A DNA stretch of 64,000 nt from Roseobacter cerasinus (GTDB taxonomy: Bacteria; Pseudomonadota; Alphaproteobacteria; Rhodobacterales; Rhodobacteraceae): the NCBI RefSeq assembly GCF_009811755.1, contig NZ_BLIV01000002.1, positions 675,001 through 739,000 on the forward strand, written 5' to 3'. Positions 50,967-59,086 of the stretch are shown here, one piece after another. Positions within the stretch are counted from its first letter, which is position 1. Every line of letters starts with the position of its first letter. A program made the position numbers and the translations under genes. A model generated the notes under the pieces. The model had not been told where the DNA came from, did no database searches, and saw only the letters and a program-made list of their open reading frames with translations.

Positions 50967-51879
50967 AGCAGTCGCGGCCTTTCGTGATCTCGCGGTATAG
51001 TGCCTGCTGATCCCGGCGTGACAAGCCGCCACCCATCACAATACCGCAACACATCTTCCGAACAGCGCATCTGACATCGAAGGCTCAGCTATAAAAACAC
51101 GCAAAAACGAAGGCGCGCCTGCTGCTTTTACGCAATGTCCTGCCCGACCTTTCTGTAAGAGATCCCGCAGTAGCAAGTATGTTACACGAGATTTACTATG
51201 ATTTTTACAGGTATGGATGTCAGGCCAACCATATGTGCCGTCCGCCTGCAGTGTCGTCCAGACCCCGGCACCTTTGGCGCGCGGCGTTTGGACCTCGAAA
51301 AACCATACTCCTGAACGATGGGGCGCGACCCGTTCACAATCGTCTGTATCGAGCCGCAGTGATCTTACAGGCTCTTAAATATGTTCTATTTTTTGCCGTG
51401 AAATAGGCACGCGTCAGATCGCGGCGCCAATGTTTGATCTGCCTGTGACATCCCCTGCATCGCCTTCAGCCTTGTTGCAAACGCACCCGATGCCTCTCCT
51501 GATCCGGATCTCCAGCACAACCCCCGCACTTTGGCCGGATTTCATCGCCATGCCGCGCCTCTCGGTCGATACCAGTGGGCAACCCTGAACTTGAGACCTC
51601 CAAACCACGAAAGCGACCCGTGCAGCGCACAGTTATGTCAGGATCTCCCGATCGCTCCGCTGCACGTAATGCGGGCCAGTTGCGCCTCACCTGGTTAAGC
51701 CAGATGAGGCATAATCACCGCGCATCTGCCTAAGTTGAGGTGCACCACTAGACAAAAAAATCAAAGGCACCGGAAACGAGTTTGCTGTAGTAACTGCCAT
51801 AGGAAGTGGGTTATCAACACGTGGTCGGCCCACGCCTCGCCATTTCTGGCGCCAAAGTGGGTGTGGGTGTGGGTGTTGG
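50967..51879. other. Roughly 900-bp region with no supported gene
   Basis: Short frames on both strands (for example 51466-51690 minus) have no recognisable domain. Base composition is patchy, with an AT-rich segment around 51180-51400. It may contain decayed genes. A promoter for the cyclase gene is expected near the 3' end; a poly-A stretch lies at about 51752-51758. Confidence 0.35.
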
Positions 51880-53646
51880 ATGGAGCCTTCTCAAGTCACA
51901 CATTACGGTCTTACGACAGTCCTTGTCGCGGATATCTATGGTTTCTCAAGACTTATGAGCCGCGACGAGGAAGAGACCTCGATTCGAGTATCCCGTGCAA
52001 TCGACCTGATCCGACAATTGGCAATCGACTACGGGGGAACAATAAAAAACATCGCCGGAGACGGCGTGTTGGCCCTGTTCGACAGTGTGTCAAACAGCGT
52101 GCAGTTTGCGGTGGCGATGCAGCAAGAGTTTCTGAACGATGCTGTTTGGAACTCCGGGTCTGATCCACTCTCTTTTCGTATCGGCATCAATATGGGTGAA
52201 GTGCGAGAAGGGCATTTCGGCATGCACGGCCATGCGATCAACGTGGCAGCGCGGCTTCAGGGGCTGGCAAAACCAGGCGGTATCTGCGTGTCGGAAGTTG
52301 TCTCCCGCGTCGCACGGGACCAACTTCAACTGCCCCTGAAGTCACTGGGCACGCCTGTTCTGAAAAACATTGACGACCAGATCGAAGTCTTTGAGATTGA
52401 ACCCAAGGCACTTTCCATACGCGCACCAGCCGAAGCGCCGACGATCATTGAGCGCGTGACGACGCTACAGGATCTGCCGGACAACTCGGTTGCTGTGCTG
52501 CCGCTTGAAAACCTGTCCGGTCAGCCCCAAAATGCGCATCTTTGTAACGGGGTAACCGGCGATATCATTTCGAACCTGACGCGGTTCAAGGCGTTGCATG
52601 TGATCGCGCAGCAGTCATCGAACCTGTTTGCCGGCCGGCACATGCCGATCAGTGATATCGGCAGACTACTGGGCGTCAGATATCTGGCGACAGGGGGCTT
52701 TCAACGCTCAAACAATCAGCTGCGTGTTCAGATTCAGCTTCTTGAGGCGGAATCAGGTCGTTCAGTCTGGGGAGAGACCTTCAGTGGCAACATCGAAGAT
52801 ATTTTCACATTCCAAGATGAAATAACCGCAATCATTGCATCCTGCTTGTCGGTAAAAATCGACAAGGCCGAGCGGCAACGACAGCAGCGGAAAGCGCCGT
52901 CAGACCTACAGGCTTACGGCCTTATCTTGCGTGGCCGCGATGTATACGCGCAGCCCCGGCGAGAGCTGAACCTGCATGCACGGCGGCTCTTCGAGCAAGC
53001 CTCTGCCATTGATCCTGACTATGCGGCCTCCTACACCAGCATCTCGCGGACGTCGAATGACGCCTGGAGGTTCAACTGGGTCGATCACCCCGACGGTGCC
53101 CTTGACGACGCCATCTCAAACGCCGAGATGGCCTTGCGCCTGGACCCCGATGATGCACGCGGGCATGCAGCGCTTGGCAACGCGTGCCTGTACAAACGCC
53201 GTCATGATGAATCATTGGCCGCCTACGAACGCGCCATTCAATTCAACCCGAACGATGCTGATATTCTGGCCGAAATGGGTCATTCCGCAGGTGTCTACGG
53301 CGAGCCGGAGCGTGCAGTGGAGTTGATCAAGCGCGCCATGCAGCTCAATCCCTTCTATCCGGATTGGTACCTATGGCATCTCGGCGAAGCCTATTTTGAT
53401 ATGAGTGACTACGAAGAAGCGATACGAACACTGACCCAGATGCGGGACAAGACCGATGCGTATCGCATGTTGACGGCCAGCAACGCCCTGCTTGGGCGTA
53501 TGGATGTGGCCAAACGTCATGCAGCGCAGATCCTCAAGACCCATCCGGAATTCACGCTGACACATTGGGAAAATGTGCCTCCTGACCGCAATCCCGGGCC
53601 GCGGGATCGATTGATCGAAGGGTTGAAGAAAGCAGGTCTGGAGTGA
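51880..53646 (+). CDS. Class III nucleotidyl cyclase fused to TolB-like and TPR domains
   Basis: 588 residues. Cyclase domain about 10-170: VLVADIYGFSRLMSRDEEET with first metal Asp, KNIAGDGVLALFDS with second, and GHAINVAARLQGLAKPGGICVS. A middle TolB-N/FlgO-like module (about 203-330) begins SVAVLPLENLSGQ and contains IGRLLGVRYLATGGF. The rest contains TPR repeats (AISNAEMALRLDPDDARGHA, SLAAYERAIQFNPNDADIL, AVELIKRAMQLNPFYPDW). This architecture is common in alphaproteobacteria. Start is ATG 51880; an in-frame upstream extension is not supported. Confidence 0.9.
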   Translation: MEPSQVTHYGLTTVLVADIYGFSRLMSRDEEETSIRVSRAIDLIRQLAIDYGGTIKNIAGDGVLALFDSVSNSVQFAVAMQQEFLNDAVWNSGSDPLSFRIGINMGEVREGHFGMHGHAINVAARLQGLAKPGGICVSEVVSRVARDQLQLPLKSLGTPVLKNIDDQIEVFEIEPKALSIRAPAEAPTIIERVTTLQDLPDNSVAVLPLENLSGQPQNAHLCNGVTGDIISNLTRFKALHVIAQQSSNLFAGRHMPISDIGRLLGVRYLATGGFQRSNNQLRVQIQLLEAESGRSVWGETFSGNIEDIFTFQDEITAIIASCLSVKIDKAERQRQQRKAPSDLQAYGLILRGRDVYAQPRRELNLHARRLFEQASAIDPDYAASYTSISRTSNDAWRFNWVDHPDGALDDAISNAEMALRLDPDDARGHAALGNACLYKRRHDESLAAYERAIQFNPNDADILAEMGHSAGVYGEPERAVELIKRAMQLNPFYPDWYLWHLGEAYFDMSDYEEAIRTLTQMRDKTDAYRMLTASNALLGRMDVAKRHAAQILKTHPEFTLTHWENVPPDRNPGPRDRLIEGLKKAGLE

Positions 53647-54134
53647 GCAGGTCGAGCAACCCGGCATCTGTATCAGATGTTGCGCCTCCGGACTTCGCAC
53701 TGCGGCCCGCTCAGGACGGTGATTTCAGCTTTGCCCGACGCCTTTACATGGACTCGATGAAACCCTTGCTGATGGCGTTGGACGCATGGAACGCGGATGA
53801 AATGGAAGCCGCGTTTCGCAGCTATTTCGTCCGGGACGAGATCAAACTGGTCATGTTGGACGGCCGGGACGTGGGCTGGTTTCAGGTTTCCCAGACTGAC
53901 ACTGACATGTGCATTGATCAGCTTTACCTCCTCCAGGAGGTGCGCGGTCAGGGCATTGGCGCAGCTTTGGTCAAATCCATCATCTCAGAGGCCGCGGAGC
54001 AAGACAAAGATGTCTGCTTATCATTCGTCCACGGCAACCCTGCCCACACTTTGTATCACAGGCTTGGCTTTCGCCAGATATCTGAAGACGATACAAAAAT
54101 CCACATGCGATATCAAAACGAACAGGCCTCGTAG
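53643..54134 (+). CDS. GNAT-family N-acetyltransferase
   Basis: 163 residues starting at GTG 53643, overlapping the cyclase stop (GTGA). Acetyl-CoA motif A: IDQLYLLQEVRGQGIGAALVKSIISEA with R/Q-x-x-G-x-G/A, followed by HGNPAHTLYHRLGFRQIS. Substrate unknown. It converges on the repeat protein of the YcaO/TfuA cluster, 27 bp away, so a role in that system is possible but unproven; coupling to the cyclase gene points to co-expression with the latter. Confidence 0.88.
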   Translation: MSRSSNPASVSDVAPPDFALRPAQDGDFSFARRLYMDSMKPLLMALDAWNADEMEAAFRSYFVRDEIKLVMLDGRDVGWFQVSQTDTDMCIDQLYLLQEVRGQGIGAALVKSIISEAAEQDKDVCLSFVHGNPAHTLYHRLGFRQISEDDTKIHMRYQNEQAS

Positions 54135-54161: not shown

Positions 54162-54758
54162 TTAGTCGCTGCCACCAAATGCCTTGCCACCGCTGTAGGC
54201 TTTACCGCCGCTATAAGCTTTGCCACCGCTATAGGCCTTACCCCCGCTATAGGCTTTGCCGCCGCTGTGACCAGCACCGCCTTGGCTGAGTTCGGCGTCA
54301 AGCAGGATTTGATCCAGGGGGCCAATCTCGGGGTCCAAACGGATGGAAAAGTCGGACTTTTCATAGGCCCAGGCCCGGACGTCATCGGCAAAGAGGATAT
54401 TGCGTTGTGCAAGCCCAGCCTGATCGACGCTACCCCGCCCGCGCGTCGCAACCGCCTTGGCGTCTTCCGCCGGCGCGCCAGCGCCGTGAACAAGAAAGAT
54501 CTGAGGCCGTGCCAGGTCATAATAGTGACCTTCGAAGCTGAACCCGAAGATCCTGGCAAACCGCGCGTTGCCGCCTGCCAGTTGCGCATCCAAAAAGCCG
54601 TTCCTGTCTTCTTGGACGGGTGTTTTCGTCTCTCCTGAGGCCGGATCATCGGCTCCGCCAGCAGGCGTTTGTGGCGCCGGGACCGCCTTGTATACAAAGT
54701 CATCCAATTCTCTGCCAAACAGCAAAATTGTCGAAAAATTGATTAATCTATCACCCAC
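54162..54758 (-). CDS. Candidate RiPP precursor / modified substrate with SGGKAY repeats
   Basis: 198 residues starting at GTG 54758 with AGGAGGG 7 nt upstream. Residues 1-160 look like a soluble folded or leader region (LINFSTILLFGRELDDFVYKA, NGFLDAQLAGGNARFARIFG, FEGHYYDLARPQIFLVHGAG). Residues 165-198 are four SGGKAY units, then SGGKAF and GGSD. The gene lies downstream of the YcaO, TfuA and metallopeptidase genes on the same strand, with a 102-bp gap before it. Thioamidation by YcaO/TfuA needs a substrate peptide, and this Gly-Gly-rich tail is the best local candidate. The length is large for a classical precursor. No known family was recognised. Confidence 0.7.
   Translation of the reverse strand: MGDRLINFSTILLFGRELDDFVYKAVPAPQTPAGGADDPASGETKTPVQEDRNGFLDAQLAGGNARFARIFGFSFEGHYYDLARPQIFLVHGAGAPAEDAKAVATRGRGSVDQAGLAQRNILFADDVRAWAYEKSDFSIRLDPEIGPLDQILLDAELSQGGAGHSGGKAYSGGKAYSGGKAYSGGKAYSGGKAFGGSD
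54165..54266 (-). repeat. 18-bp tandem repeat encoding SGGKA(Y/F)
   Basis: Five 18-bp units at the 3' end of the precursor-like gene. The codons differ between units (GGC GGC AAA GCC TAT, GGG GGT AAG GCC TAT, GGT GGC AAA GCT TAT, GGC GGT AAA GCC TAC and GGT GGC AAG GCA TTT), while the peptide is kept. That pattern indicates selection on the amino acids rather than recent slippage. Confidence 0.85.
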
Positions 54759-54860
54759 GTCTTTTCCCTCCTAAAGCACCTGCAGCCAATTCTATGCCGC
54801 ATCTCAGTGCGCTTATGGCATATGGGGCTGCTGGATGTCAGTAACTTCTTTGAAGCGACG

Positions 54861-56216
54861 CTACCGTATCTGCGAAATTTCATGCAACATTCTAAAGGGT
54901 AAACGACCTCCGCAGCGATGCGGAAGGTCGTCTGGAACATCTGTGCGACTGGAAAAGGCGTGACTGGACTCATCAGGCGGGGCAAGGCGCGGACCTGCGC
55001 TGATGACACCAATGCCGCGGCGCTCCATATTCAGGGAGATAATGCGGTGATACTGCCCACCTGACATCGCATGATCGACCTCCAAGAAGGTCTCATAGAC
55101 ATCCGCAAAGTCCAGTGTTTCAATTGAGAGACGCTCCCAGATACTCGCCATGGCAAACCCCATGTAGTCACGTGACCCGACCAAGGCATCTGCAAAACCT
55201 CCGGGATTGCGGGCATATGCCTGATCAAAGAGCGGCTGAATGACCTTGTGATAATCCGGATCACCTTCCAGACGGTCGGACAAATCTTCCAGTTCTTCGG
55301 AGATCAGGTGACCGCGCAGAAGATTTTCGTGGAAAATATCGATCCAGATGTCAAAGAGCGCCCCAGTCAGAACTTGTGACAAATCGTGCTCATAGGCCCA
55401 GCCATCGGCAAACTCATAAAGGGTTCGGTCGTTGGAGGCGGATCTTAGCTGGCTGCTGTTCGACACCTCACCAAAACGGCTTAACCTGTTGAAAGAATAA
55501 AGGTTTCCGCTTGTCGAGTCCAGCAGGCCGACCACTGCGCTGTCGAAGTGCAGCAGGGAAATCAGCGCCACCATGTCAGCGGCGGATTCGTGAAATCCGA
55601 AGTACTCCCCGTGCACCTCGACTTTGCCGGGAAGACCGATCTCGTTGTAAATGATGAGATGTCCCAATTCATGCGACAGGATATCAAAGCTGAGGCCGAA
55701 CTCGACCAGCTCTCCGGTCTTGAGAGTGTAAGAGCCAATCTCGATGGAGCCGAACCCAGCGAAGGCATTGTCCAATCCCCGCAGAAACAGGATCTCAAGG
55801 CGGTCGTAGTGGTCTTGAAAGTGCCACTCCAACTGCCGCTCGAAATAATGCTCCCAGATATCCATCGTAAAACGGATTGCGCCAAATGCGTGGGCTTGCT
55901 CAAACGCATAGGTTCCAATCTCCAGATGGTCAAAATGCCCCTCCGGGTCCGGGTGAGCTTCGGGCAGAACCGGTCCATTCCAGGGTGGACGGTAGTGAAA
56001 CGTCGCGCCGCTGGGTGTCGGGTAGTAGCCATAGGCGCGTTCCTTACCCACCGGATCAATGACATACATTCGGTGATCTGCAGGACCGGGCAACAGCGAC
56101 CCGGCGGGTGAAGAGACCCAAACCGTTTCAGGCTCCTGTTGCTGATCCAATGAAGGCAGCTGCGGAAACAGTCGAAAACGCGTGCCACCGGAATGTTCAG
56201 TTTCAACGTATCGCAC
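54861..56216 (-). CDS. HExxH metallopeptidase of the YcaO/TfuA cluster
   Basis: 451 residues starting at GTG 56216, 5 bp after the tfuA-like stop. Zinc site H182-E-L-G-H186 in FDILSHELGHLIIYNE, with a downstream F-H-E-S-A-A-D (209-214) placing Glu210 as third ligand, as in gluzincins. Segments IRFTMDIWEHYFERQ and WAYEHDLSQVLTGALFDIWIDIFHE recall the M36/M4-like secreted peptidase fold. No signal peptide is visible, so a cytoplasmic role such as leader cleavage is plausible. The C-terminal ~60 residues are variable and polar. Function within the cluster is inferred. Confidence 0.75.
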   Translation of the reverse strand: MRYVETEHSGGTRFRLFPQLPSLDQQQEPETVWVSSPAGSLLPGPADHRMYVIDPVGKERAYGYYPTPSGATFHYRPPWNGPVLPEAHPDPEGHFDHLEIGTYAFEQAHAFGAIRFTMDIWEHYFERQLEWHFQDHYDRLEILFLRGLDNAFAGFGSIEIGSYTLKTGELVEFGLSFDILSHELGHLIIYNEIGLPGKVEVHGEYFGFHESAADMVALISLLHFDSAVVGLLDSTSGNLYSFNRLSRFGEVSNSSQLRSASNDRTLYEFADGWAYEHDLSQVLTGALFDIWIDIFHENLLRGHLISEELEDLSDRLEGDPDYHKVIQPLFDQAYARNPGGFADALVGSRDYMGFAMASIWERLSIETLDFADVYETFLEVDHAMSGGQYHRIISLNMERRGIGVISAGPRLAPPDESSHAFSSRTDVPDDLPHRCGGRLPFRMLHEISQIR

Positions 56217-56221
56217 GCGGT

Positions 56222-57583
56222 CTACCTTTCCATTATCAGCGGTTGCGTCGGCGCATCATAATCATCGCCCCGCGATGCCTCATCTTGCCAAAGAACATAG
56301 GTCCGGGCCATCATTTGTTCGAACTCAGTGCGGTCCGCAAAGTCATTTTGCCCGATGAAAGCATCGAGATCGTCGGGCACCGCTTGATTGCGGACCTGCT
56401 CAAAATACCAGATCAAAAGCATGGCGGGGTTGATATCCAGATCGCTCGCTGTTGGGTAAGGGGTGCCAAGGCGATCAAGGGCCATCCCCATCCGTTTTGC
56501 CTCGGCCAACAGCTTGTCGTAACCTCCGTCAGCTTTCAGCGTTTCGATCATGGCCAGGTGGAAAGCATCACGATGGGCGGCGATGGCCGCCGTTAGACGC
56601 AGCTCCGCTGCAATCTGTTCCTCAAGCGCAGGCAAATCCAGATCATTGGCCGCCAGCCAGCTTTCCAGAACCTCTCCGGTGTAAAGTCTGTTTTCCGCGC
56701 GAAATCTGGTCATAGCCCGGTTCAAATCCGCCTGCGGGATTTCAAAGACTTGTTCGGACATCAAACGACTAGCCGCTCGACAGCGCAGGTCGGCGTAAAA
56801 TGTCGGGTCCACGCGCGCCTGATCAATCACCAACAACATTTCTCTGTTTGGGCCTGTCTTCTCGACCGAGCGTGTCAGTGTCTCCCACATTGCAGTGTGT
56901 TGGAATTCGAAGTTTTGTGCAGGGGTAACGCGGGCCTCTCGATAGAATCGTGCCATCTCAGATACCATCTCGAGGGCATCAAGGCGTTTTTGGTCAACGG
57001 CCCCGGTTGGCAGCCAGTTTTCCAACTCTTCTAGGCGCAACCTCGGATGCTTTTCCCTGGTTTGCTGAATAAGGCTCTTCCACGACCGCTCCGGAAAGTG
57101 CATTTTCTTGGAGACGTCTATCAGACAGTCTGCATCACCAGCGCTGAGTACACCCGCCGACACGGACCGCCTGAGTGATGCACGTATGTTCACCATCGGG
57201 ACTGAGAGCGCCACATACCCCAGATCCGCTGGACCATGCTGCAGCGCAACCTCATCGTCATCTTCGAGCGTTCCCTCGCGGAACGCCTCAAAAATCGCGC
57301 CGACCCCTATCATCCCGAAGCTGTGCAGTTCAGCAGCCCGCAACGCGCCCATACTTGATGCGCCAAAGACTGGGATGTCCCGCGTGATCGCAAACAGGAT
57401 TTCCTTGTGCCACACCGACGGAACACCGCTGAAGTATCCATCGATGAGGCCGATGCCGGTAGCCCCCTCCTGGCAGGCCAGATAAACGTCGCCTGCGCGC
57501 GCCGGGGGGCGAACCTCAACCTCACTCAATGCAGTCCTGACGTCGTCCGCGTGGAGTGTCGGGCCTGTGAAAACATAGATCAT
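56222..57583 (-). CDS. TfuA-like protein
   Basis: 453 residues from ATG 57583, which overlaps the ycaO stop by 4 nt (ATGA). TfuA core at the N-terminus: YVFTGPTLHADDVRTAL, GLIDGYFSGVPSVWHKEILFAI, VFGASSMGALRAAELHSFGMIGVG, FEAFREGTLEDDDEVALQHG. A C-terminal helical extension (about 190-453) is not part of the core. TfuA proteins partner YcaO in peptide backbone thioamidation (McrA thioglycine, thioamide RiPPs) and in trifolitoxin synthesis, probably delivering or activating sulfur. The 3' neighbour is the metallopeptidase gene. Confidence 0.93.
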   Translation of the reverse strand: MIYVFTGPTLHADDVRTALSEVEVRPPARAGDVYLACQEGATGIGLIDGYFSGVPSVWHKEILFAITRDIPVFGASSMGALRAAELHSFGMIGVGAIFEAFREGTLEDDDEVALQHGPADLGYVALSVPMVNIRASLRRSVSAGVLSAGDADCLIDVSKKMHFPERSWKSLIQQTREKHPRLRLEELENWLPTGAVDQKRLDALEMVSEMARFYREARVTPAQNFEFQHTAMWETLTRSVEKTGPNREMLLVIDQARVDPTFYADLRCRAASRLMSEQVFEIPQADLNRAMTRFRAENRLYTGEVLESWLAANDLDLPALEEQIAAELRLTAAIAAHRDAFHLAMIETLKADGGYDKLLAEAKRMGMALDRLGTPYPTASDLDINPAMLLIWYFEQVRNQAVPDDLDAFIGQNDFADRTEFEQMMARTYVLWQDEASRGDDYDAPTQPLIMER

Positions 57584-58812
57584 CGGGCAGCCTGCTCCAA
57601 CACGCGGTGCGCACGTTCTCCGGGGCAATAGTCATCGTGATCATGCGGGCCTTCCAAACCCGGAATGACAATTCGGTGCACTGGAATGCCAAATGCTGGC
57701 TTGGTCAGATCCACATCTATGACCTCAGCGACACCCACCGCCCTAAGACGCGCCAGCACCCAGTCCAAATCCTCTTCCAACGTGTCAAGCACACGCGAAG
57801 GTACAGCTTCAAACGGGATCAGCTTTGGCGATTGCGCTGCCATCAAGCGCTGCGCATACCGGTTCTTTTCGGCGATGCCCTTGGACGAATATTCATCATG
57901 CCGCAAATCATCGCGCGCCCCGGTGATGTAGTTGGTCCGCACCTGCACGGCTTCGGTCACCGCCCGGAGGAGCGCGACTCTGCTGCTGGGGTGCGTGCCG
58001 GCCCCACTGCCCGAGTGCCCGTTCTCAACCTGCATATCCGCAATCAGACAGTGAAACGTCGCAACGCCGACGTCCCCCGTCATGTCCCAAATCGCGACCG
58101 ACATGCCTGCCTTTTGCAAAATCTCAAGCAATGACCGGCAAACCTCGTCGGATATGCTGTCCAAATCAAGTCTGGTTTCGGTCTTTGCGCCAAACGGCAA
58201 GATATGCCACAGCGTGTTCGCATCTCGCTCGATCACCTCGCACATGCCATGCACAACGGCTTCCAGCCGATGATTGCCAGACGCCAAACCGTTTGTACTT
58301 GCGACAAAGCATCCGGCGTGAGGCCGCCGCGGCAATGTGTAGTCCGTATGTACCAACTCCGACGGCAGCCAAACGCGATCGCCCGAGAGAAGGTCGCGCC
58401 CCTCTGCCCAGAAGATCGGCCGGTCGGGGTGAAATGCCGTGCCATCCAGAAACGGCAGTCGTTTGATATCGATCACACGCCCGCGCATGCTCACATCATC
58501 AAAACGACCTTCGAACAGGGGCAGATCAATCTCTTCTGCATGAAAGCCTTCTACCGCCTCCATGATTGCAGACGCCTTGGCCGCTGCAAGGCTCAAACCC
58601 TTTCCTTGCGACACGGATAGAGAGCGTGAGTTTGGTCGATAGGCGTTAAAGACGGGGATGCCGATCCGATCAAGCCCGGTCACGTTCGCCACTCTCGTAA
58701 TGCCCATGGCCGAGAGGCGTGGTTCGACAGTCTGAAGTGTCTGAGCCGGAGCTATGACGCGGTGCGTGCCGTCGGCGAATGACTTGCGAGTGATGTCCAT
58801 GTCAGATGACAT
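57580..58812 (-). CDS. YcaO-domain protein (TfuA-associated)
   Basis: About 410 residues from ATG 58812; an in-frame TTG at 58887 would add 25, and no strong ribosome site decides. YcaO ATP-binding features: SLAAAKASAIMEAVEGFHAEE (S-x-x-x-E-x-x-E), AVVHGMCEVIERDANTLWH (second Glu/Arg helix) and LRAVTEAVQVRTNYITGARDD (E-x-x-Q-x-R). The C-terminus PAFGIPVHRIVIPGLEGP is typical of TfuA-linked YcaOs rather than proline-rich azoline-forming ones. YcaO uses ATP to phosphorylate the peptide backbone amide; with TfuA the expected product is a thioamide. First gene of the putative operon. Confidence 0.93.
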   Translation of the reverse strand: MSSDMDITRKSFADGTHRVIAPAQTLQTVEPRLSAMGITRVANVTGLDRIGIPVFNAYRPNSRSLSVSQGKGLSLAAAKASAIMEAVEGFHAEEIDLPLFEGRFDDVSMRGRVIDIKRLPFLDGTAFHPDRPIFWAEGRDLLSGDRVWLPSELVHTDYTLPRRPHAGCFVASTNGLASGNHRLEAVVHGMCEVIERDANTLWHILPFGAKTETRLDLDSISDEVCRSLLEILQKAGMSVAIWDMTGDVGVATFHCLIADMQVENGHSGSGAGTHPSSRVALLRAVTEAVQVRTNYITGARDDLRHDEYSSKGIAEKNRYAQRLMAAQSPKLIPFEAVPSRVLDTLEEDLDWVLARLRAVGVAEVIDVDLTKPAFGIPVHRIVIPGLEGPHDHDDYCPGERAHRVLEQAAR

Positions 58813-59086
58813 AACAGCATAGAACCTGACGATGGGAAAAGAAAAAGCGTCTTCGTCATGTTCACCGAAGATCGGGTCATTCTTCAACTTCGTAGGTCAT
58901 CGGTCAGCCCATGCTCCGCTCCTTGGCCGAAGACCTGGCTGGTGACGCGCGTCGGGCTGCCCCACTGAATCAAGCCCGCCCGACTCGAAAAAGACGATCA
59001 GCTTAATCGGCACATCCTCGCTATCTATGGTTGACTAAATATAGAATTGCAAAAAAGAACACCCGATCAGTGCAAGTGCATCATAT
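58813..59086. other. Upstream region of the YcaO/TfuA operon
   Basis: No further gene recognised apart from the possible 25-codon N-terminal extension of YcaO. It should contain the operon promoter (minus direction); an AT-rich stretch near 59030-59060 is a candidate location. Confidence 0.35.

Follow-up and report, generated by a model that had tools for sequence, protein, structure and literature searches.

It is well established that YcaO proteins, together with TfuA partners, thioamidate peptide backbones (PMC5589413; PMC6511847; PMC13174530). The characterised ribosomally synthesised and post-translationally modified peptides (RiPPs) made in this way comprise the thioviridamide-like compounds, the thiovarsolins, the thioamidated thiopeptides and the chimeric lanthipeptides, to which the product of the std cluster of Streptomyces thermodiastaticus is added (PMC13174530, a 2026 preprint). 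In 2015, the substrates of TfuA-associated YcaO proteins were stated to be unknown (PMC4603692). The present work describes a cassette of Roseobacter cerasinus, located in a stretch of 64,000 nucleotides (assembly GCF_009811755.1, contig NZ_BLIV01000002.1, positions 675,001 to 739,000 of the forward strand; hereafter the window), in which the genes for YcaO and TfuA are followed by those for a metallopeptidase (PEP) and for a candidate precursor with a repeated C-terminal tail (SUB). A first-pass annotation, made from the sequence alone, had recognised YcaO and TfuA as the thioamidation pair and had proposed the tail of SUB as their substrate.

Among the described systems, the closest precedent for repeated cores is that of the thiovarsolins (VarA/VarY/VarT, Streptomyces), which has the same YcaO-TfuA pair, a precursor with imperfect tandem cores like the SUB tail, and products that are small, linear, thioamidated and N-acetylated peptides like those proposed below; unlike the present locus, it is actinobacterial, its cluster has no specific protease, and its acetyltransferase is taken as endogenous (PMC6511847). 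None of the thiovarsolin partners (an amidinotransferase, an ATP-grasp ligase and a heme-oxygenase-like protein) was found among the eight window proteins scanned. In the std cluster, thioamidation by YcaO and TfuA was shown on Asn and a peptidase domain of the cluster cleaves the precursor, which recalls the presence of PEP within the cassette; however, this domain is of the S8/S53 type and fused to a carbamoyltransferase, there is a single SNKEWQE core motif, and the cluster includes an RRE partner protein as well as an MNIO enzyme, for which the cassette contains no genes (PMC13174530, preprint). The YcaO-TfuA system that forms the thioglycine of methanogen McrA offers another likeness, a protein-sized substrate with Gly as the target, but McrA is a housekeeping enzyme without repeats and without a cassette of peptidase or regulator (PMC5589413).

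The cassette is real and conserved. The four open reading frames lie on the same strand and at the positions first annotated (Table 1), and the closeness of three of them is borne out by the window sequence, in which an ATGA is shared by the stop of YcaO and the likely ATG of TfuA, and 5 bp separate the end of TfuA from PEP; a further 102 bp lie between the end of PEP and SUB. The identities of the first two proteins are clear: YcaO matches Pfam PF02624 over its full length (E 1.4e-79) and is the single PF02624 match in the whole genome, and TfuA matches PF07812 (E 6.5e-45). Compared with the NCBIfam models for McrA thioamidation, both fall under the cut-off, YcaO with 244.8 bits (methan_mark_1, the YcaO of McrA-glycine thioamidation; cut-off 365) and TfuA with 200.6 bits (cut-off 235.2). 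The nearest solved relative of YcaO is MJ1094 (6pe3, E 4.4e-33), in whose alignment three E-rich stretches coincide, which we take to be the ATP/Mg motifs. A YcaO domain with these three motifs and an adjacent, here overlapping, TfuA gene are the features by which a YcaO-TfuA backbone-thioamidation system is recognised. The solved TfuA relative 6xp8 (E 1.3e-35) covers residues 18-230 of 468, and past this known match TfuA carries a C-terminal extension of approximately 240 residues (231-468; window 56222-56938); long and short forms of TfuA both occur among the cassettes. As a separate observation, the TfuA matches of two loci (L054 and L055, from genomes G316 and G131) fall in open frames of 1123 and 909 residues, possibly fusions or long overlapping frames; they adjoin YcaO, and no PEP or SUB match was found beside them.

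SUB has a strongly conserved domain of approximately 150 residues followed by a tail that ends in (SGGKAY)4 SGGKAF GGSD, with five in-phase units at residues 165-194 (Tandem Repeats Finder scores of 105 at period 18 and 131 at period 36). The precursor of the thiovarsolins is reportedly much shorter. The window protein has no Pfam or NCBIfam match at E 0.1, and neither its profile against PDB sequences (E 1) nor its AlphaFold2 model against PDB folds (E <1) gave a match; the model, built from a 71-row alignment, has a pLDDT confidence score of 63.8, falling below 50 in the tail. The tail is not a recent DNA duplication, because all five units differ in DNA, with a proportion of synonymous differences between units (pS) of 0.78 against 0.029 for nonsynonymous ones (pN), and the earlier description of it as conserved is upheld by this strong constraint on the amino acids. 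Pooled over 19 genes the values are 0.67 and 0.036, the units being counted in phase from first to last seed with degenerate end units omitted, and the highest ratios are those of L035 (0.23) and Paracoccus denitrificans (0.20). Synonymous sites near saturation with few nonsynonymous changes imply that the copies are old and that each has been held to the same peptide. Within the SGGKAY group (11 genes), pairs of genes are on average 54% identical in the part before the tail, and never less than 39%, and the unit itself is near-constant, the last one being SGGKAF in five of the 11 genes and a single GGGKAY occurring in L010.

Across the 70 SUB homologues found, the units differ (SGAHARI, SGADLR, GANVR, SGARV, SGQKVRY, SGMDARIRS) and remain near-uniform inside one protein. 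Tails could be delimited in 63 of them; 40 are periodic relative to shuffles (at most 5 of 500 shuffles reaching the observed value), and the 23 that are not include single-copy tails of like kind, such as YYSGQDAFLRR and FAGKNVRLRG. The pattern [YF][SAG][GSA] is present in 49 of the 63 tails and a [SAG]-G-x-x-[AVLF]-[RK] unit in 41. The family thus displays a conserved leader-like region with variable C-terminal cores, as expected of RiPP precursors, and the tail unit varies between lineages as RiPP cores do. One metagenomic homologue (P0001) is identical to the SUB of L005 over its first 169 residues and has fewer copies in a tail with Cys (SGGKAFCGGKAYSGC), either a variant or an assembly error.

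The first-pass call of an HExxH peptidase agrees with the predicted fold of PEP, which matches M36 fungalysins and M4 thermolysins at 10-15% identity in the aligned rows, and with its conserved putative zinc site. Residues H182, E183, H186, E210 and D214 are invariant in 72 of 72 sequences; on the precedent of thermolysin, we take them to be the zinc ligands. PEP thus has both the HExxH motif and the downstream Glu of the M36/M4 enzymes (gluzincins). No family-level match was found in Pfam or NCBIfam at E 0.1, nor any with PDB sequences at E 1. Because the folds match, PEP probably works like an M36/M4 peptidase outside the curated families; it shares with these enzymes the fold and the zinc-site residues and differs from them in its genetic tie to SUB and YcaO-TfuA. 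Neither a signal peptide nor a propeptide was seen in PEP, and no N-terminal hydrophobic segment was found in PEP or SUB. Apart from the cassettes, a PEP relative on a Nostoc plasmid (L080:6965-8227) adjoins a radical SAM protein and two ferritin-like proteins, at a locus where YcaO, TfuA and SUB are all without a match, and three weak, distant PEP matches (G146, G184, G284; E 1e-13 to 1e-20) lie in fetched stretches in which YcaO, TfuA and SUB were likewise unmatched.

The four genes are found together well beyond the window. Among ten close relatives compared by tblastn and profiles (Roseobacter, three Roseovarius, Tateyamaria, Anderseniella, Aminobacter, Roseibium, and Hyphomicrobiales and Pelagibius metagenome-assembled genomes), the order YcaO-TfuA-PEP-SUB is kept in nine, and the tenth (L010) ends at a contig edge. 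When 37 fetched loci and the window are considered, all four genes are contiguous in 30 of 38, which is not a population frequency because the plasmid loci were picked by hand from match lists (129 records for PEP; 51 for SUB, of which 49 are Rhizobium and two Paracoccus). This count includes a SUB assigned by position (L052, 291 residues with 12 RAVM repeats, missed by the SUB profile) and a weak SUB match (L082, E 5.6e-5); two loci are cut by contig ends (L010, L053) and six are exceptions. Order and adjacency persist even in very divergent loci, with YcaO scoring as low as 111 bits against the model of the close relatives. In the class sample, PEP matched in 11 of 385 genomes, eight of them strongly (E <1e-100); TfuA adjoins PEP in all eight and SUB follows it in seven, the contig of the eighth stopping inside PEP, and these matches are partly by construction, since the SUB and PEP profiles contained members of some of the genomes later matched. 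TfuA is present in 21 of these 385 genomes, and strong PEP accompanies it in 8 of the 21. A PEP or SUB match is absent at ten other TfuA loci from this sample (one each from 8 of the 13 TfuA genomes without strong PEP, plus the second TfuA loci of G148 and G211; neighbours were inspected by eye in six), with a SUB profile that also missed the divergent SUB of L052. Searched with the SUB profile, the class gave matches in 6 of 385 genomes, the phylum in 5 of 398 and the family in 8 of 295, in overlapping sets that each count the genome of the window; two further families gave 4 of 17 and 1 of 39, the centre genome being counted in each. Among the SUB-bearing loci that are long enough (n = 36), PEP is present in 34, TfuA in 33 and YcaO in 32, counts that favour PEP in that several loci were found through it. 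Over 28 loci, the distances of YcaO, PEP and SUB are correlated (Mantel r 0.91, 0.92 and 0.95; none of 2000 permutations reached any observed r). Taken together, these observations support the expected co-occurrence, SUB being the usual companion of YcaO, TfuA and PEP.

The reading that we hold to be moderately likely is that the cassette encodes a thioamidated-RiPP-like pathway with SUB as its protein-sized precursor. What has been computed is the gene content, the gene order, the correlated divergence, the fold of PEP, its conserved catalytic residues and the constraint on the tail; from these we infer all the chemical steps, the thioamide site, the cut site, the role of the N-acetyltransferase (GNAT) encoded next to SUB and the fate of the peptide. 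The N-terminal domain of SUB would serve as a leader or carrier for a flexible C-terminal tail in which a core of 4-9 residues occurs 1 to 12 times (five in the window). YcaO, with ATP, would activate one backbone amide per core and TfuA would supply the sulfide, so that each core would gain one thioamide, in the simplest case at its Gly if it has one. PEP would then act as a cytoplasmic zinc endopeptidase that cuts between cores, beside a hydrophobic residue of the unit, and would free several copies of a small thioamidated peptide. A hydrophobic residue is present in each unit type named, and cutting next to hydrophobic residues is the preference of thermolysin-like enzymes. In the SGGKAY lineage, GNAT might acylate or detoxify the freed peptide, and a protein with cyclase and TPR domains, also encoded nearby, might regulate the cassette. 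The cassette would accordingly be of the YcaO-TfuA thioamidation kind, with putative chemistry, a multi-core precursor and a dedicated thermolysin-fold peptidase.

Several observations weigh against this proposal. Neither an RRE domain nor an exporter was found among the eight window proteins scanned with Pfam and NCBIfam. The PEP profile held sequences from four genomes of the sample (G037, G148, G154, G233) and from the window, so that only the finds in G071, G211 and G355 are independent of it; shared ancestry and a split into two deep clades account for part of the Mantel correlations, and TfuA distances correlate less than the others (r 0.52-0.67). As for the tail, its first-pass description as Gly-Gly-rich is not general: the [SAG]-G-x-x-[AVLF]-[RK] unit is present in 41 of the 63 tails, all four rhizobial single tails read lack Gly at that place (YAQ.., YAI..), and the tails of L019 and L077 are Arg-rich and without repeats, all of which weakens the idea of a thioamide at Gly in every copy.

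The exceptions in gene content belong here as well. YcaO is undetectable at L022, and YcaO-TfuA-SUB without PEP is found in both Paracoccus plasmids (L075 and L076, the latter of P. denitrificans). All three Rhizobium plasmids read that belong to one clade (L070, R. etli p42c; L071; L073, strain TA1) carry the cyclase gene, PEP and SUB without adjacent YcaO-TfuA; the search with the window SUB matches 49 Rhizobium plasmid records, of which these three were read, so that the class with PEP and SUB only may be large by record number, and a protease-only branch is possible. The first-pass annotation had proposed that homologues mostly lacking YcaO-TfuA, or YcaO-TfuA genes next to a different short peptide, would speak against it. 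The former is seen in part, in this one clade, and as for the latter, other rhizobial pairs do adjoin different small open reading frames. A divergent but full cassette with a one-copy tail (for example RSPLAYAQTQLLAPQRLRD) is present in four of four further plasmids read, from a second PEP branch (Rhizobium sp. CIAT894, R. phaseoli N161, S. meliloti Ak57 pSymB and R. leguminosarum WSM1689). The observations weighed here leave the association intact within the window's own lineage. Each of the Rhizobium loci with PEP and SUB only also has a protein of approximately 110 residues after SUB (L070:10974-11312, L071:10973-11299, L073:9600-9932).

Of the other explanations, the one that survives best, unlikely as we judge it to be, had been raised in the first-pass annotation: SUB would be modified yet uncut, a working protein that retains its thioamidated tail, which could be rigid or metal-binding for instance, and PEP would only trim, activate or turn over SUB. 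The domain before the tail is indeed strongly conserved and exceeds usual leaders in size, an exporter was not seen, and the Paracoccus SUB has no adjoining PEP. Furthermore, YcaO proteins act on folded McrA (PMC5589413) and on the ribosomal protein uL16, which the E. coli YcaO requires in folded form and modifies without TfuA (PMC13063428), an analogy that keeps this explanation alive and counts against our own. However, the unit changes freely across lineages while it is near-uniform within a protein, and PEP is the commonest neighbour of SUB, even if several loci were found via PEP; with 40 of 63 tails periodic and 23 not, a released peptide is the preferred reading.

Somewhat less likely still is that two modules have been brought together: YcaO-TfuA would act on another small peptide, unlinked or unannotated, and PEP-SUB would be a separate protease-substrate or protease-inhibitor module, often co-transcribed with it. 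The Rhizobium loci with PEP-SUB and no YcaO-TfuA suit this explanation, as does the YcaO-TfuA pair of strain TA1, which lies on another plasmid and has neighbours of 47 and 88 residues. Opposed to it are the retention of gene order and adjacency in loci that diverge widely and the Paracoccus SUB, which accompanies YcaO-TfuA without PEP and implies that SUB follows each partner independently. In its own right, this second rhizobial YcaO-TfuA locus (L072, L074, L085) consists of a BTAD/TPR regulator, a 47-residue frame, YcaO, TfuA and an 88-residue frame, with neither PEP nor SUB annotated alongside; between TA1 and R. lentis the 88-residue protein is nearly identical and the 47-residue protein clearly related, and the two are candidate substrates of that system.

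It is very improbable that PEP is instead an oxidative, alpha-ketoglutarate-dependent HEXXH enzyme, and not or not only a hydrolase. HEXXH proteins of RiPP clusters that had been named metallopeptidases proved to be oxidative, one such cluster also has a GNAT, and PflC is able to cleave backbones both oxidatively and hydrolytically (PMC12636437); these precedents stand beside the match of PEP to the M36/M4 fold. Hardly credible at all is an unmodified tail, with a pentapeptide-repeat-like beta structure or as a low-complexity linker. In its favour, 4 of 71 members match the Pfam pentapeptide-repeat model (PF00805; best E 5e-6); the window SUB does not, the pentapeptide-repeat identity was rejected, and the units of 4-9 residues, the single-copy tails and the low pLDDT of the modelled tail all disagree with it.

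Returning to the locus, the four genes first described are all there, and two further cassette genes had been overlooked (Table 1): those for GNAT and for the cyclase/TPR protein, which overlap by 4 bp and are both retained in all ten close-relative (SGGKAY) loci. GNAT is convergent to SUB in each of these ten; elsewhere it lies upstream of YcaO in one of the two Paracoccus loci (L076), and it was undetected in the remaining loci of the 38-locus comparison. In Aminobacter (L008) the cyclase/TPR protein is matched only from residue 196 on, and a BTAD-domain regulator is annotated in the same neighbourhood of a rhizobial YcaO-TfuA locus; the cyclase/TPR gene is therefore most likely regulatory. 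Directly before its start at 51880 there is a (GTGGGT)3.3 tandem repeat (window 51857-51876), which could be a length-variable regulatory tract. A defence-system identity was rejected as the main one: what PADLOC returned for the cyclase protein were weak matches to Pycsar cyclases and nothing else (best E 1.1e-7), and the nine other window proteins scanned had no match.

Table 1. Features of the cassette, in window coordinates.
Feature	Position	Strand	Remarks
YcaO	57580..58887	-	likely start 58812
TfuA	56222..57628	-	likely ATG 57583
PEP, metallopeptidase of M36/thermolysin fold	54861..56216	-	
SUB, candidate precursor (~150-residue conserved domain and repeat tail)	54162..54758	-	
SUB tail repeats, SGGKAY x4 and SGGKAF	54177..54266	-	
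GNAT N-acetyltransferase, convergent with SUB	53643..54134	+	Pfam PF13508, E 8.2e-11
Adenylate/guanylate cyclase domain and TPR protein	51880..53646	+	PF00211, E 1.2e-8; TPR_1, E 2e-16

No published description of the cassette was found in the open-licence PMC literature, supplements aside, in keeping with the earlier remark that the combination could not be matched to a described system. A survey of TfuA clusters assigned more than 500 of them to Rhizobium, sought precursors with RiPPER at standard settings, and is silent, in its available text, on repeat-tailed proteins and on metallopeptidases, the words ‘repeat’ and ‘metallo’ being absent from that text and the lone ‘peptidase’ occurring in a figure legend, as a prolyl endopeptidase S9 (Malit et al., 2021; PMC8120280). 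The families of that survey very likely include rhizobial copies of the cassette. At standard settings, RiPPER favours short peptides and would miss SUB. We suggest, as a tentative possibility and with some doubt, that Alphaproteobacteria make a class of thioamide natural products not yet described, with protein-sized carriers that bear as many as a dozen tandem cores and are matured by a cytoplasmic thermolysin-fold peptidase dedicated to them.

Related cassettes occur in many Alphaproteobacteria, root-nodule bacteria included, and for a group of orphan YcaO-TfuA loci, some of them rhizobial, a likely substrate and a likely protease can now be named. The substrates of such loci may have been overlooked, the precursor being a protein of approximately 200 residues and not a short peptide; the proposed pathway, if true, would explain at least part of the rhizobial orphan loci. 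PEP would then be a protease type outside the leader-removing metalloproteases named in a review, whose available text lists M1, M16, M61, M103 and M50 and not M4 or M36 (PMC10885120). The thioamide sites would be encoded by repeats and easily counted, with as many as 12 to a precursor among the loci seen, and tractable hosts would be available in Paracoccus denitrificans, Rhizobium etli and the Roseobacter relatives. The core would have diversified by lineage (SGGKAY, SGAHARI, SGARV, SRAVMA, GMSV), so that the product would be a different small thioamidated peptide in every clade, which might serve as a signal within the cell or the community and not as a conventional antibiotic.

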